Assembly (NCBI GenBank): GCA_017469785.1
Contig: JAFUFU010000034.1
Coordinates: 1 to 64,000, forward strand
DNA: 64,000 nucleotides
Source: Treponema sp.
Lineage (GTDB): Bacteria > Spirochaetota > Spirochaetia > Treponematales > Treponemataceae
Direction of reading: 5' to 3'
Shown here: positions 18,549 to 34,180 of the stretch, piece after piece
How the letters are laid out: every line of letters begins with the position of its first letter
How positions within the stretch are numbered: the first letter of the stretch is position 1
Program-made: the position numbers and the translations under genes
Notes under the pieces: model-generated
What the model was told of the DNA's origin: nothing
Database searches by the model: none
Seen by the model: the letters and a program-made list of their open reading frames with translations, nothing else

Positions 18549-18656
18549 TTATTTCGGCAACGGAAAAATCACAGATTTTTCCGAGACTCGCTCAAAACTT
18601 TCCTCGAAAGTTTTGCCGGCTACGCCGTCGCTCCCTATATATTCAATACCCTTCAT
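18549..18656 (-). other. 35-codon frame: extra atpB start fused to an inserted hairpin element
   Basis: The ATG lies two bases after the atpA stop, where atpB would be expected to begin. The frame opens MKGIEYIGS, nearly identical to the real atpB start MKGVEYKGV (20 of 23 bases match), then runs through the inserted R3 element to a TAA. It is probably a relic of the original atpB start rather than a gene. The peptide could be translated because it keeps the operon position. Confidence 0.6.
18552..18640. repeat. Paired-hairpin element R3, copy 1
   Basis: On the plus strand: GGAAAAATC-ACA-GATTTTTCC (9-bp perfect stem), linker GAGACTCGCTC, AAAACTTTC-CTC-GAAAGTTTT (9-bp stem), then GCCGGCTACGCCGTCGCT. 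The second copy at 34101-34180 has the same layout with different arm sequences. Confidence 0.75.
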
Positions 18657-18658
18657 AA

Positions 18659-20428
18659 TTATGCCCTCTTGAACTGTCTTTCCAAATTATCCATCTGCTC
18701 GTCCAGGCGGCCTTCAACTTCTTTCATCAGCTCTAGCTTGTCGTTCGGCACCTGTGATTTTAAGCGCACGATTTCATCTTTTACAGGAAGGGCCACAACC
18801 GTCGGAAGGGGGGCGCCAGCCTTTATGACCTTAAGGGCGCGCTGATAGTAAGTCATAATCAGCATGAGGATTGCAATCTGCTTTTCAGGAACAGAATAGA
18901 CATCCACCGCATCGAAGGCGCTCTGCTGCAAGAAGCCGTTTTTAATCATGTCGGCCACAGTAAGAACGATTCGCTTTTCGTCTGGAAGGGCATCAGGTCC
19001 AATCAAGCGGACAATCTGCTGTAATCTCTGCTCGTCTTTCAAAAGTTCCAAGGCTGAAAGGCGGACTTCTGCCCAGCGCGGGTCAAGCTTGTCCCACCAT
19101 TCCCGGACTTCCTCTGCGTATTCAGAATAACTCTCAATCCAGCCGATAGCCGGATAGTGCCGGGCATTTGCAAGTTCCCGGTCAAGAGCCCAGAAACAGC
19201 GTATAAATCGCTTTGTGTGCTGGGTGACAGGCTCAGAAAAATCGCCGCCCGGAGGAGAAACAGCACCGATTACAGAAACACTTCCTTCCTGCCCGCAAAG
19301 AGCGTTTACTCGTCCTGCCCGCTCGTAGAATTCTGCAAGTCGGGTCGGCAAATAAGCCGGGAAGCCTTCTTCGGCAGGCATTTCTTCCATTCGGCCGGAA
19401 AGCTCGCGCAAAGCCTCAGCCCAGCGGGAAGTAGAATCAGCCATGATTGCCACATGCATTCCCATGTCACGGTAATATTCTGCCAAAGTGATTCCCGAAT
19501 AAAGGGAAACTTCGCGAGCCGCAACCGGCATGTTTGAAGTGTTGGCAATCAAAATCGTTCGTTCCATGAGGGAACGGCCTGTTCTCGGGTCAATCAATGT
19601 GGGGAATTCAGTGAGAACATCTGTCATCTCGTTACCGCGTTCACCACAACCAATGTAAACGATTAAGTCCGCGTCGCACCATTTTGCGATAGCGTGCTGG
19701 GTCATGGTTTTCCCGGTACCAAAGCCGCCAGGAATAGCCGCCGTTCCGCCCTTTGAGAGAGGGAAAAAAACATCGATAACGCGCTGACCGGTAACAAGAG
19801 GCTGGCTCACTTCAAGTTTCTGTGCGTATGGACGGGGATTTCGGAGCGGCCAATAATGAGAAAGTTTGATTTCCTCGCCTAATTCAGTGATGCCGATTAC
19901 ATCATCGACCGTGTATTCGCCATCACCCTTGAAAGATTTGAGAGTTTTGCCTTTGACAGTCGGCGGAACCATGATTTTATGACGGATAGACTGTGTTTCC
20001 TGAACATAGCCCAAGACCTTTCCGGCAAAGATTTCAGAGCCTTCGCTTACGCCCTCGGCCACAGTCATCTTCCATTTTTTTTCGGTATCGATTGGCTCAG
20101 TTCGCTCGCCCGGAACAAGGAAAGCCCCCGAATGCTCGAACATATTTTTAAGAGGCCGCTGGATTCCGTCGTAAATCGTTCCAACCAGGCCTGGCCCAAG
20201 TTTCAAAGAGAGAGGACGGCCACTAGAGACTACTTCCTCACCGATTTTCATGCCGGTGTCGTCTTCGTAAACCTGAATCGTGGCCTTGCCTTCGTTCTGG
20301 CGGATAATCTCGCCGATGATTTTCTTTTCGCCAACATCGACTACATCATAAAGACCGCAGCCTTCCAATCCCTCGGCATAAACGATTGGTCCTGAAATTC
20401 GTGTGATTTTTCCTTTGATGATGCTCAT
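18659..20428 (-). CDS. atpA: V-type ATP synthase subunit A (catalytic)
   Basis: 589 residues. This is the ATP-hydrolysing/synthesising subunit of the A3B3 head. The P-loop is PGGFGTGKTMTQHA. Other marks are YIGCGERGNEMTDVL with the catalytic Glu/Arg finger region, ADSTSRWAEALRELSGRMEE and MPAEEGFPAYLPTRLAEFYE. The family's non-homologous insert (roughly residues 110-190, PTVKGKTLKSFKGDGEYTV) separates it from F-type beta. Its ATG overlaps the atpE stop by four bases. Confidence 0.96.
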   Translation of the reverse strand: MSIIKGKITRISGPIVYAEGLEGCGLYDVVDVGEKKIIGEIIRQNEGKATIQVYEDDTGMKIGEEVVSSGRPLSLKLGPGLVGTIYDGIQRPLKNMFEHSGAFLVPGERTEPIDTEKKWKMTVAEGVSEGSEIFAGKVLGYVQETQSIRHKIMVPPTVKGKTLKSFKGDGEYTVDDVIGITELGEEIKLSHYWPLRNPRPYAQKLEVSQPLVTGQRVIDVFFPLSKGGTAAIPGGFGTGKTMTQHAIAKWCDADLIVYIGCGERGNEMTDVLTEFPTLIDPRTGRSLMERTILIANTSNMPVAAREVSLYSGITLAEYYRDMGMHVAIMADSTSRWAEALRELSGRMEEMPAEEGFPAYLPTRLAEFYERAGRVNALCGQEGSVSVIGAVSPPGGDFSEPVTQHTKRFIRCFWALDRELANARHYPAIGWIESYSEYAEEVREWWDKLDPRWAEVRLSALELLKDEQRLQQIVRLIGPDALPDEKRIVLTVADMIKNGFLQQSAFDAVDVYSVPEKQIAILMLIMTYYQRALKVIKAGAPLPTVVALPVKDEIVRLKSQVPNDKLELMKEVEGRLDEQMDNLERQFKRA

Positions 20429-21060
20429 TCAGGCAACCTCCCGCCAAAAAGAGTCGTCGCAAGTTCTGCGCTGTATTTGTCTTTGATTTCCCGCACAATC
20501 TGGTCAATCGTAAGCCGGATGCGTACAAAACCGTCCTCACTTACAAGAACGATTCCCTCATGGAAGGAATTCCCAAGAGCTGCCTCTTCTCCAGACTTCT
20601 CAAAAGAGACCTCTTCGATTTTTCCGAGATTTTTCACTGATTTTTCAAGCAATTTTTTTGCCTTTGCGCCATCGAAGCCGAAGACCAAGGCGTTTATTTT
20701 TTTCTCAACATACAGCTGAGAGAGATTGTCCAGTCTTTTTTCGATAAGGGAAAGCCTTTTTTCCTCACCGAGATTTTCAAGATAGGCGTTAAAAGCCTCT
20801 GAAACCGCATCGCTGTAAAATGAAACTAAAAAGCGTCCCTTTTCAAGGGGCAGGGCTTCATTGATGCTTTTTTCTGCCTGCAAAATTTTAGCGGCATAAT
20901 AAGCTTTTTTTTGAGTTTTTGCTTCGTCCACACGGCGTACGACATCATCCAAAATTGTCTTGCTTTCTTCTTCAGCACGTCTGAGAATTTTTTCAGCTTT
21001 TTTTCGCGCGTCAGCTTCAATTTCTTTATCAAGGATTTCGGTTGACCGTAATTCTTCCAT
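20425..21060 (-). CDS. atpE: V-type ATP synthase subunit E (peripheral stalk)
   Basis: 211 residues. The first half is a charged coiled coil (EIEADARKKAEKILRRAEEE), the second a globular domain that caps the head (GIVLVSEDGFVRIRLTIDQI). With subunit H/G it forms the peripheral stalk of the ATPase. It sits between atpF and atpA, with translational overlap into atpA. The sequence is divergent from archaeal E proteins, but position and architecture support the call. Confidence 0.85.
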   Translation of the reverse strand: MEELRSTEILDKEIEADARKKAEKILRRAEEESKTILDDVVRRVDEAKTQKKAYYAAKILQAEKSINEALPLEKGRFLVSFYSDAVSEAFNAYLENLGEEKRLSLIEKRLDNLSQLYVEKKINALVFGFDGAKAKKLLEKSVKNLGKIEEVSFEKSGEEAALGNSFHEGIVLVSEDGFVRIRLTIDQIVREIKDKYSAELATTLFGGRLPE

Positions 21061-21074
21061 AAATTTTCCCTACA

Positions 21075-33773: not shown

Positions 33774-33891
33774 ATCTCAATTTTCAAATAATAAGAAGAT
33801 TTTGTCAATGTGAATCGAAGCAGAAAGAAAATTCCACGACTAAAAAGCCATGCGTTTTTCGGAGCGAAAACACGCAGCATATTTCGCGAGA

Positions 33892-34099
33892 GTTGAATCG
33901 AATGATAATGAAAACAGCAAAAAAAGTCCGCCGAAGCGGACTTTACTAGATAGTGCTAGAAAACTTAGCAGTTCTCAGAGAAATATTTGATTGTGCGGAC
34001 CATACGTCGCTACGCGCCGTTTGCCACTAAGGAAGTTATTGACGTTTGCGCTCTCGCGCATGGGCATCTGTGAACTATAGCTATTTTCATTATCATACC
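33892..34099 (-). pseudogene. Second, degenerate copy of the gapA 3' end with its own terminator
   Basis: On the minus strand the fragment reads YDNENSYSSQ, an insertion of about 64 bases bounded by CAT on both sides (34004-34067), then MVRTIKYFSENC and TAA at 33967-33965. The real gapA ends YDNENSYTSQMVRTIKYFSE and NC. Most base differences are silent, so the copy was once under selection or came from a coding paralogue. A perfect-stem terminator follows. Everything upstream of YDNENSY is missing and is replaced by an R3 element. Confidence 0.85.
33919..33944 (-). terminator. Terminator behind the gapA remnant
   Basis: On the minus strand AAAGTCCGC-TTCG-GCGGACTTT, a 9-bp perfect stem with a TTCG tetraloop, followed by T7. 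It retains full terminator form although the gene before it is dead. Confidence 0.85.
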
Positions 34100-34100
34100 T

Positions 34101-34180
34101 AGCGAACGGCCCGTAGGGCAAAAACTCGTAAGACGAGTTTTTAGTGAGTCTCGATTTAAGCTATGCTTAAATCGGCGGTC
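34101..34180. repeat. Paired-hairpin element R3, copy 2
   Basis: Read on the minus strand: GATTTAAGC-ATA-GCTTAAATC (9-bp stem), linker GAGACTCACT, AAAAACTCGT-CTT-ACGAGTTTTT (10-bp stem), then GCCCTACGGGCCGTTCGCT, which abuts the gapA remnant. Same layout as 18552-18640. Confidence 0.75.

Follow-up and report, generated by a model that had tools for sequence, protein, structure and literature searches.

The described systems closest to the element reported here are short palindromic repeats of bacterial genomes. Researchers have found that repetitive extragenic palindromic (REP) transposases (RAYT/TnpA-REP) bind a folded single-stranded hairpin plus an unpaired motif (PMC8266576), and Rickettsia palindromic elements (RPEs) have been described as inserts of 105-146 bp with terminal inverted repeats, some of which lie in open reading frames and RNA genes (PMC2229807). 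CGTC-tagged palindromic repeats, which have no known transposase and occur in five phyla including the Spirochaetes, consist of a single 8-9 bp stem that begins AT-rich, a CGTC tag and mostly a CCA tail; the word 'Treponema' does not appear in the main text of that paper (PMC3733652). In this work, we describe a short repeat that stands twice in a 64,000-nt stretch of Treponema sp. DNA (GenBank assembly GCA_017469785.1, contig JAFUFU010000034.1, positions 1 to 64,000; hereafter the window) and whose arms change between copies yet stay complementary. The reading we favour, at about even chances, is that it is a non-autonomous mobile repeat of gut Treponema which a putative mobility enzyme would recognise by its predicted fold and not by stem sequence.

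On its own strand, 5' to 3', the element consists of hairpin 1 (10 bp, loop ACA or ATA), a linker GAGACTC(G/A)CT, hairpin 2 (10 bp, loop CTC or CTT), hairpin 3 and a tail CG(C/T)TC(C/G)CTA, and its length across the family is 63-92 nt. The two copies in the window and their parts are as follows.

18561..18637, + strand: element copy A, 77 nt, between atpA and atpB; covariance-model match of 93.6 bits, E 8.4e-21
18561..18583, + strand: hairpin 1 of copy A, CGGAAAAATC-ACA-GATTTTTCCG; predicted RNA fold, with its pairs counted in the alignments
18583..18592, + strand: linker of copy A, GAGACTCGCT; its GC is complementary to the tail GC (closing helix, from covariation)
18593..18615, + strand: hairpin 2 of copy A, CAAAACTTTC-CTC-GAAAGTTTTG; predicted RNA fold
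18617..18627, + strand: hairpin 3 of copy A, CGGC-TAC-GCCG; predicted RNA fold
18628..18637, + strand: constant tail of copy A, TCGCTCCCTA; from sequence and tail composition
34100..34174, - strand: element copy B (75 nt), with gapA on one side and the repeated gapA end on the other; covariance-model match of 81.2 bits, E 1.4e-17
34152..34174, - strand: hairpin 1 of copy B, CGATTTAAGC-ATA-GCTTAAATCG; predicted RNA fold
34120..34142, - strand: hairpin 2 of copy B, AAAAACTCGT-CTT-ACGAGTTTTT; predicted RNA fold
34109..34119, - strand: hairpin 3 of copy B, GCCC-TAC-GGGC; predicted RNA fold

Both copies fold far below their shuffles, as RNA (z -3.79 for copy A and -4.68 for copy B) and as DNA (-5.78 and -6.28), and the two hairpin elements that had originally been predicted from the window's letters are thus present. 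The predicted plan needed revision: the arms do differ and pair perfectly, and the linker GAGACTC(R)CT is common to both copies, but the supposed end, CTACG..CCGT..CGCT, is a variable hairpin 3 followed by the constant tail CGYTCnCTA. A plan of two hairpins was also too small, for there are three, with a helix of 2-3 bp around hairpins 2 and 3.

Like REP and REPIN sequences, the Treponema element is short, palindromic, non-autonomous and present in many copies, but a REP is a single palindrome of 20-40 bp, whereas the element has three hairpins, a covarying closing helix and freely variable stems. REPs also have a partner RAYT/Y1 gene, whereas there are 0 Y1 matches in the element's own genome. 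As to the GTAG tag of REPs, the reverse strand of the element begins TAG in most copies, and the preceding G is found at about 66% of 134 junctions. RPEs are likewise small palindromic inserts, but the present element is 63-92 nt long and its ends are not complementary on reading. It resembles REP and RPE repeats, then, but fails tested features of both, and its consensus differs by sequence from the CGTC repeats. Miniature inverted-repeat transposable elements are also non-autonomous, short and mobile-looking, but the Treponema element has no terminal inverted repeats (on reading, it ends CGG.. or CC.. and ..TCCCTA). As to target duplication, there is none at gapA and direct repeats stand at 5-6 of 62 own copies, with no constant short one seen. 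Integron attC sites are recombination sites that keep their structure while their sequence varies; they are cassette-linked, whereas the element is dispersed. An Rfam scan of the window at gathering cut-offs gave 0 matches, in agreement with the original prediction, which knew of no described family with such a plan, and no description of such repeats in Treponema was found in the open-licence literature among the matches listed. We regard the element as a likely variant of short palindromic mobile repeats, of interest for its stem turnover with kept complementarity.

That structure is kept under sequence change, as had been proposed, is strongly supported by covariation, by the closing helix and by compensated differences at orthologous loci. 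A first alignment held 15 own-genome copies found by the linker pattern (one chance match and one short copy excluded); it was not fitted to the covariance model, although its structure was drawn by eye from the same sequences, and over 24 pairs in three helices 82.9% of its cells were paired versus 66.1% in shuffles, with a covariation score of 0.419 versus 0.168. Among 63 distinct own-genome rows, an alignment fitted to the model and hence biased towards it, 91.1% of cells were paired versus 68.2% in shuffles, and the covariation score was 0.483 versus 0.150 (0.028-0.097 in slid versions). Helix 2 was 98.7% paired over these rows, with Watson-Crick pairs in 587/598 own-genome cells and in 948/954 cells of relatives, whose rows are the better-scoring matches and so lean towards pairing; wobble was rare, at 6 G.T among the 1552 cells of both sets. 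The loops were mostly constant, ACA or ATA in hairpin 1 of 127 and CTC in hairpin 2 of 110 of the 143 parsed elements.

A closing helix was found without having been modelled, in which the linker R-C pairs with G-Y just before the final TCnCTA and encloses hairpins 2 and 3. Its outer pair was G-C in 106, A-T in 12 and another combination in 11 of 129 elements parsed out of 156 distinct ones (Fisher test over the G/A by C/T table, p 1.5e-10). Where a variant has an additional base, the helix is longer and again compensated, as GCC/GGC (3) or GAC/GTC (2), besides GT/AC (2), among 143 of the 156 elements parsed. The helix is missing from the predicted minimum-energy folds of copies A and B on the element's own strand; by covariation, hairpins 2 and 3 sit in a closed junction.

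Stems are also replaced in place. Of 24 between-genome copy pairs with both flanks matching, 12 were judged orthologous by eye, the remainder being cross-matches of tandem neighbours or shared repeat flanks; two pairs at one permease gene, where the version is wholly different (C54:10169 with L076 and L207; here and below, G, C and L numbers are our handles for genomes, contigs and loci), were left uncounted. In seven of the 12 the elements were identical, even with flanks of about 80% identity (one locus in three genomes accounts for three of the seven), and in two the differences lay only outside the stems. The other three differed in their stems: six differences forming three compensated pairs in hairpin 2 (GDH locus versus L082), six that include two compensated pairs in hairpin 2 plus the closing pair (C29:41393 versus L175), and four that comprise one compensated pair in hairpin 3 and two unpaired positions (C29:41476 versus L175). 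Taken together, 14 of their 16 differences over 241 positions form 7 compensated pairs, two are unpaired, and 0 uncompensated stem changes were seen. The arms are drawn from a recurring pool of versions, and 30 of the 48 combinations of hairpin 1 and hairpin 2 versions occur in 111 elements, which is almost free assortment (mutual information 0.41 of 2.15 bits). Thus, the hairpins behave as cassettes, and exchange between copies is the likely route by which we infer them to be swapped.

The covariance-model search of the window's genome gave 68 matches at E<=1; the four weakest were dropped, and at least 64 copies at E<=3.3e-5 are scattered through the genome, a lower bound with 150 of 1495 candidates scored. 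The genus survey, which used stricter filters and scored at most 23 candidates per genome, found a match in 111 of 196 same-genus genomes (E<=0.01), and the order survey in 28 of 194 genomes and 4 of 74 genera, all 28 within the window's own family. An exact pattern run over GTDB species genomes matched at least 111 stretches, of which the 80 among the matches listed belong to Treponema or uncultured Spirochaetaceae, many from ruminants; by the same matches, the complete genome of the cultured commensal Treponema ruminis has copies. Viral contigs gave 0 exact matches to this one pattern, which leaves viral carriage unsupported. The scan thus bore out many further copies with non-identical arms, but mostly without the flanking gene-end duplication that had been predicted. 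We also observed up to three elements in tandem at contig ends (L212, L236 and the ends of G020:C10 and C15), and such arrays may break assemblies there. A subfamily of 63-68 nt has no hairpin 3 (G000:C50:142514, C52:54475, C31:42535 and others, L089, L094, L098 and L100-L117) and lies mostly inside a separate CTCTGTGnnCTCT .. TCTGTGAGGAATTT repeat, in a cluster of 19 junctions.

Copy A lies between the genes of V-ATPase subunits A and B, and copy B is preceded by the GAPDH gene. The features next to the two copies are as follows.

17148-18530, - strand: atpB (V-ATPase subunit B)
18659-20428, - strand: atpA (V-ATPase subunit A)
18512..18545, no strand given: atpB start region in use, the left direct-repeat copy; local alignment score 17, p 0.0104 versus swapped flanks
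18638..18669, no strand given: second copy of the atpB start, which abuts the element's 3' end and overlaps the atpA end; from the direct-repeat alignment
33960..34099, - strand: repeated gapA 3' end, with a further hairpin-rich insert inside it; from sequence, with similar arrays in relatives
34175..34199, - strand: hairpin of a different repeat, GCGGTCG-CACGCTTGCTA-CGACCGC, with copy B at its 3' foot; from sequence

Copies of the atpB start and the gapA end thus stand beside the two elements as the original prediction said, but this is not general. The direct-repeat test took 62 own copies with enough flank and 150-nt windows, and 6 of the 62 fell at p<0.02 versus swapped flanks, with about 1 expected; setting aside C6:3154, whose repeat is a neighbouring element's tail, leaves 5 of 62. 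The gapA copy reached only p 0.047, since its repeat falls largely beyond the windows. In relatives (99 copies from 89 loci ranking high in the genus-survey list), 12 copies fell below p 0.02 with about 2 expected, and two of these (L178, L199) are tandem elements. Once tandem elements are excluded, 15 such cases remain, and in 9 of them the right repeat begins flush with the element's 3' end; L068, beside a tRNA gene, has a 90-bp flanking repeat at 98% identity. As side observations, partial tRNA gene copies lie beside or around the element at L047, L046 and L118, next to seemingly intact tRNA genes (tRNA identity by reading). At L081 (G002), a site that gave no match to atpB, the element follows about 35 nt that read almost the same as the atpB start of G084 (L123), as though this sequence had come in with a copy linked to atpB.

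Orthologous sites with and without the element separate it from the duplication. At gapA (loci L335, L336, L338 and L339 left out of the comparison), G051, G086, G038 and G020 have the duplicated gene end with no element at that junction, and the duplication is therefore independent of the element. In G051, G086 and G038 our own query aligns to base 386 and resumes at 462, with just the 75-nt element missing and one extra base at the junction, so that this insertion is a 75-nt difference with no target duplication. G022, G156 and G188 have no duplication in the stretch read, and in G038 a second gapA repeat has, at this same junction, an element whose arms are different. The atpA-atpB junction has neither element nor duplication in G038 and G020, and in G084 and G114 it has an element at nearly the same place with partly different arms. 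Gene-end duplication as a general hallmark finds no support in the swapped-flank comparison or in the element-free gapA sites.

For many own copies an open-frame end is no more than 100 nt away, and 12 of 64 lie inside mechanical open frames, several of them possibly chance frames; at L001 (G000:C6:25825), the element and a second repeat stand inside a 645-codon open frame that reads as an ABC transporter (name by reading) and may be translated. Among convergent open frames of at least 150 codons, 14 of 57 stop exactly at the element's terminal CTA (read as TAG) versus 0 of 29 at the other end; such genes include L032, L051, L054, L102, L252, L308 and others. A permease with this stop ends as in the 20 homologues listed, and NspC lacks one residue relative to most of the 18 listed. 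Exact insertion at stop codons was rejected as an explanation, though the stops stand as an observation: any in-frame insertion near a gene end gives such stops by construction, the counts include orthologues more than once (one ABC ATPase four times and one permease three times), and at least one of the frames seems fortuitous.

Other hairpin-rich repeats occur in the same genomes. A second family (AGGGGGAAGTCTCCCCC .. GCGGGGACACCCCGCAACGCCCC) has several hairpins with varying arms (L126, L127, L129, L133 and L134 at atpA-atpB junctions, and the own G000:C6:25825 region, L001), and the element often stands in its hairpin loops, in both orientations (GCGGGG|CCCCGC, AAGGGG|CCCCTT, GGGGGA|TCCCCC, on reading). 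Hairpin-loop targeting in general was rejected, with a cluster-weighted 4.6% versus a swapped-control mean of 2.0% and maximum of 7.4%, and a second measure was also weak. The other-repeat hairpin at 34175..34199 occurs in relatives too, also with other arms. Two more hairpin-rich inserts were seen at the gapA end (window 33960-34200; L329, L330, L331, L334), one within the duplicated gene end, the other ahead of it, and their arms differ between species yet pair, on reading. The gapA ends (L329, L334, window 33900-34310) read as arrays of gene end, terminator, an apparent inverted copy of gene-end sequence and a direct copy; the two terminator-like stems at the window's gapA end differ in their arms.

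Three other explanations have to be weighed. The original prediction took the placement of the elements as a sign of one shared insertion mechanism, and in its strictest form the insertion itself would duplicate the gene end as a long target-site duplication. The excess of flanking repeats in own and related copies speaks for this, as do the long repeat at L068 and the frequent start of the right copy at the element's 3' end; but the four relatives with a gapA duplication and no element, the 75-nt difference that leaves no duplication, and the 56 of 62 own copies without a flanking repeat at p 0.02 speak against it, and where copies occupy loops of the second family, no duplication is apparent on reading. 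We consider this explanation very improbable, and the placement argument is unsupported on the same evidence.

The element could instead be a structured RNA of transcripts, its three hairpins acting in mRNA 3' or intercistronic regions (stability, processing, termination) with mobility incidental. Strong covariation, the multi-branched plan, the many copies near open-frame ends, the frames stopping at the element's CTA and the A-tract and T-tract arms of helix 2, which resemble a bidirectional terminator, would all fit. However, orientation is not significantly biased (a count by eye gives 10 copies that run with their co-oriented neighbours and 19 that run against them; p 0.14), the terminator scan did not report helix 2 in either window copy, wobble pairs in helix 2 are rare, and copies also lie inside another repeat family and inside open frames, which makes this role rather unlikely in our view. 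We give a similarly low probability to an origin without selection on the fold, in which DNA copying or gene conversion rewrites whole hairpins (palindrome-perfecting template switching, exchange between copies). The recurring and almost freely assorting arm pool suggests such a process, as do hairpins that change in place while the rest stays nearly identical, perfect Watson-Crick helix-2 stems with almost no wobble intermediates, and arms that also vary in other hairpin-rich inserts. Yet the closing helix joins bases about 40 nt apart across two hairpins, covaries and gains added pairs, which hairpin copying alone would not be expected to produce, and the loops and linkers are mostly constant.

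We therefore return to the favoured reading, a mobile repeat recognised by its fold, with the caution that the element's function is what we infer. In this reading, the fold would be read as DNA, probably single-stranded, and the enzyme contacts would be made by those unpaired parts that vary little for the most part, namely the AYA loop, the GAGACTC linker, the CTC loop and the CGYTCnCTA tail. Gene conversion would exchange hairpins between copies, and selection for a recognisable fold would remove mismatched arms. That gene ends so often appear as sites would follow from tolerance of insertions at them or in gene ends duplicated beforehand.

Several points weigh against this reading. The covariation structure was drawn from the same sequences, the shuffle control ignores relatedness, and the relatives' rows are biased towards pairing. 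Much of the covariation is inherited or exchanged rather than independent, given the recurring arm pool, and the mutual information between hairpin versions exceeds that of shuffles (0.41 vs 0.25, p 0.001). In hairpin 1 no more than 83.9% of cells are paired, in part owing to internal mismatches that are conserved in common versions, and the counts of G.T versus A.C mismatches favour neither DNA nor RNA. Flanking repeats of 15-90 nt at some copies (tRNA, GDH, C6:54455, L068) do not suit a pure insertion without duplication, and the presence/absence patterns behind the presumed mobility could also be precise loss. No mobilising enzyme was found among the Y1 transposase and reverse-transcriptase domains checked, with 0 Y1 matches in the own genome (97% complete). 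If genomes with at least 20 matches in the genus survey (at most 23 scored per genome) are taken as element-rich, Y1 domains do occur in 9 of these 17 genomes versus 45 of the 179 others (p 0.02), but the domain is missing from the own genome and Y1 was rejected as the mobiliser. Reverse-transcriptase domains, of which the own genome has one, were rejected as well, being inconsistently present (7 of 17 versus 45 of 179, p 0.16). Of 16 Y1 loci examined, two have an element copy within the stretch, and the nearer one appears to lie outside the IS200 end.

A broader idea, which we hold only tentatively and think less probable than the favoured reading, is that shape is the element's identity. The stems would then be exchangeable cassettes constrained by little but pairing, structure-reading machinery would accept any version, evolution would proceed by whole-hairpin swaps, and constant loops, linkers and the junction helix would carry recognition, with the other hairpin-rich repeats of the same genomes as further members of a shape-coded class. 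Stem turnover with kept complementarity, in at least 64 copies in one genome and in 111 of 196 genus genomes, amounts to a large set of natural experiments on the features that a mobility or RNA-processing enzyme recognises, and the element could help explain the hairpin-rich gene borders and contig ends of gut Treponema assemblies.

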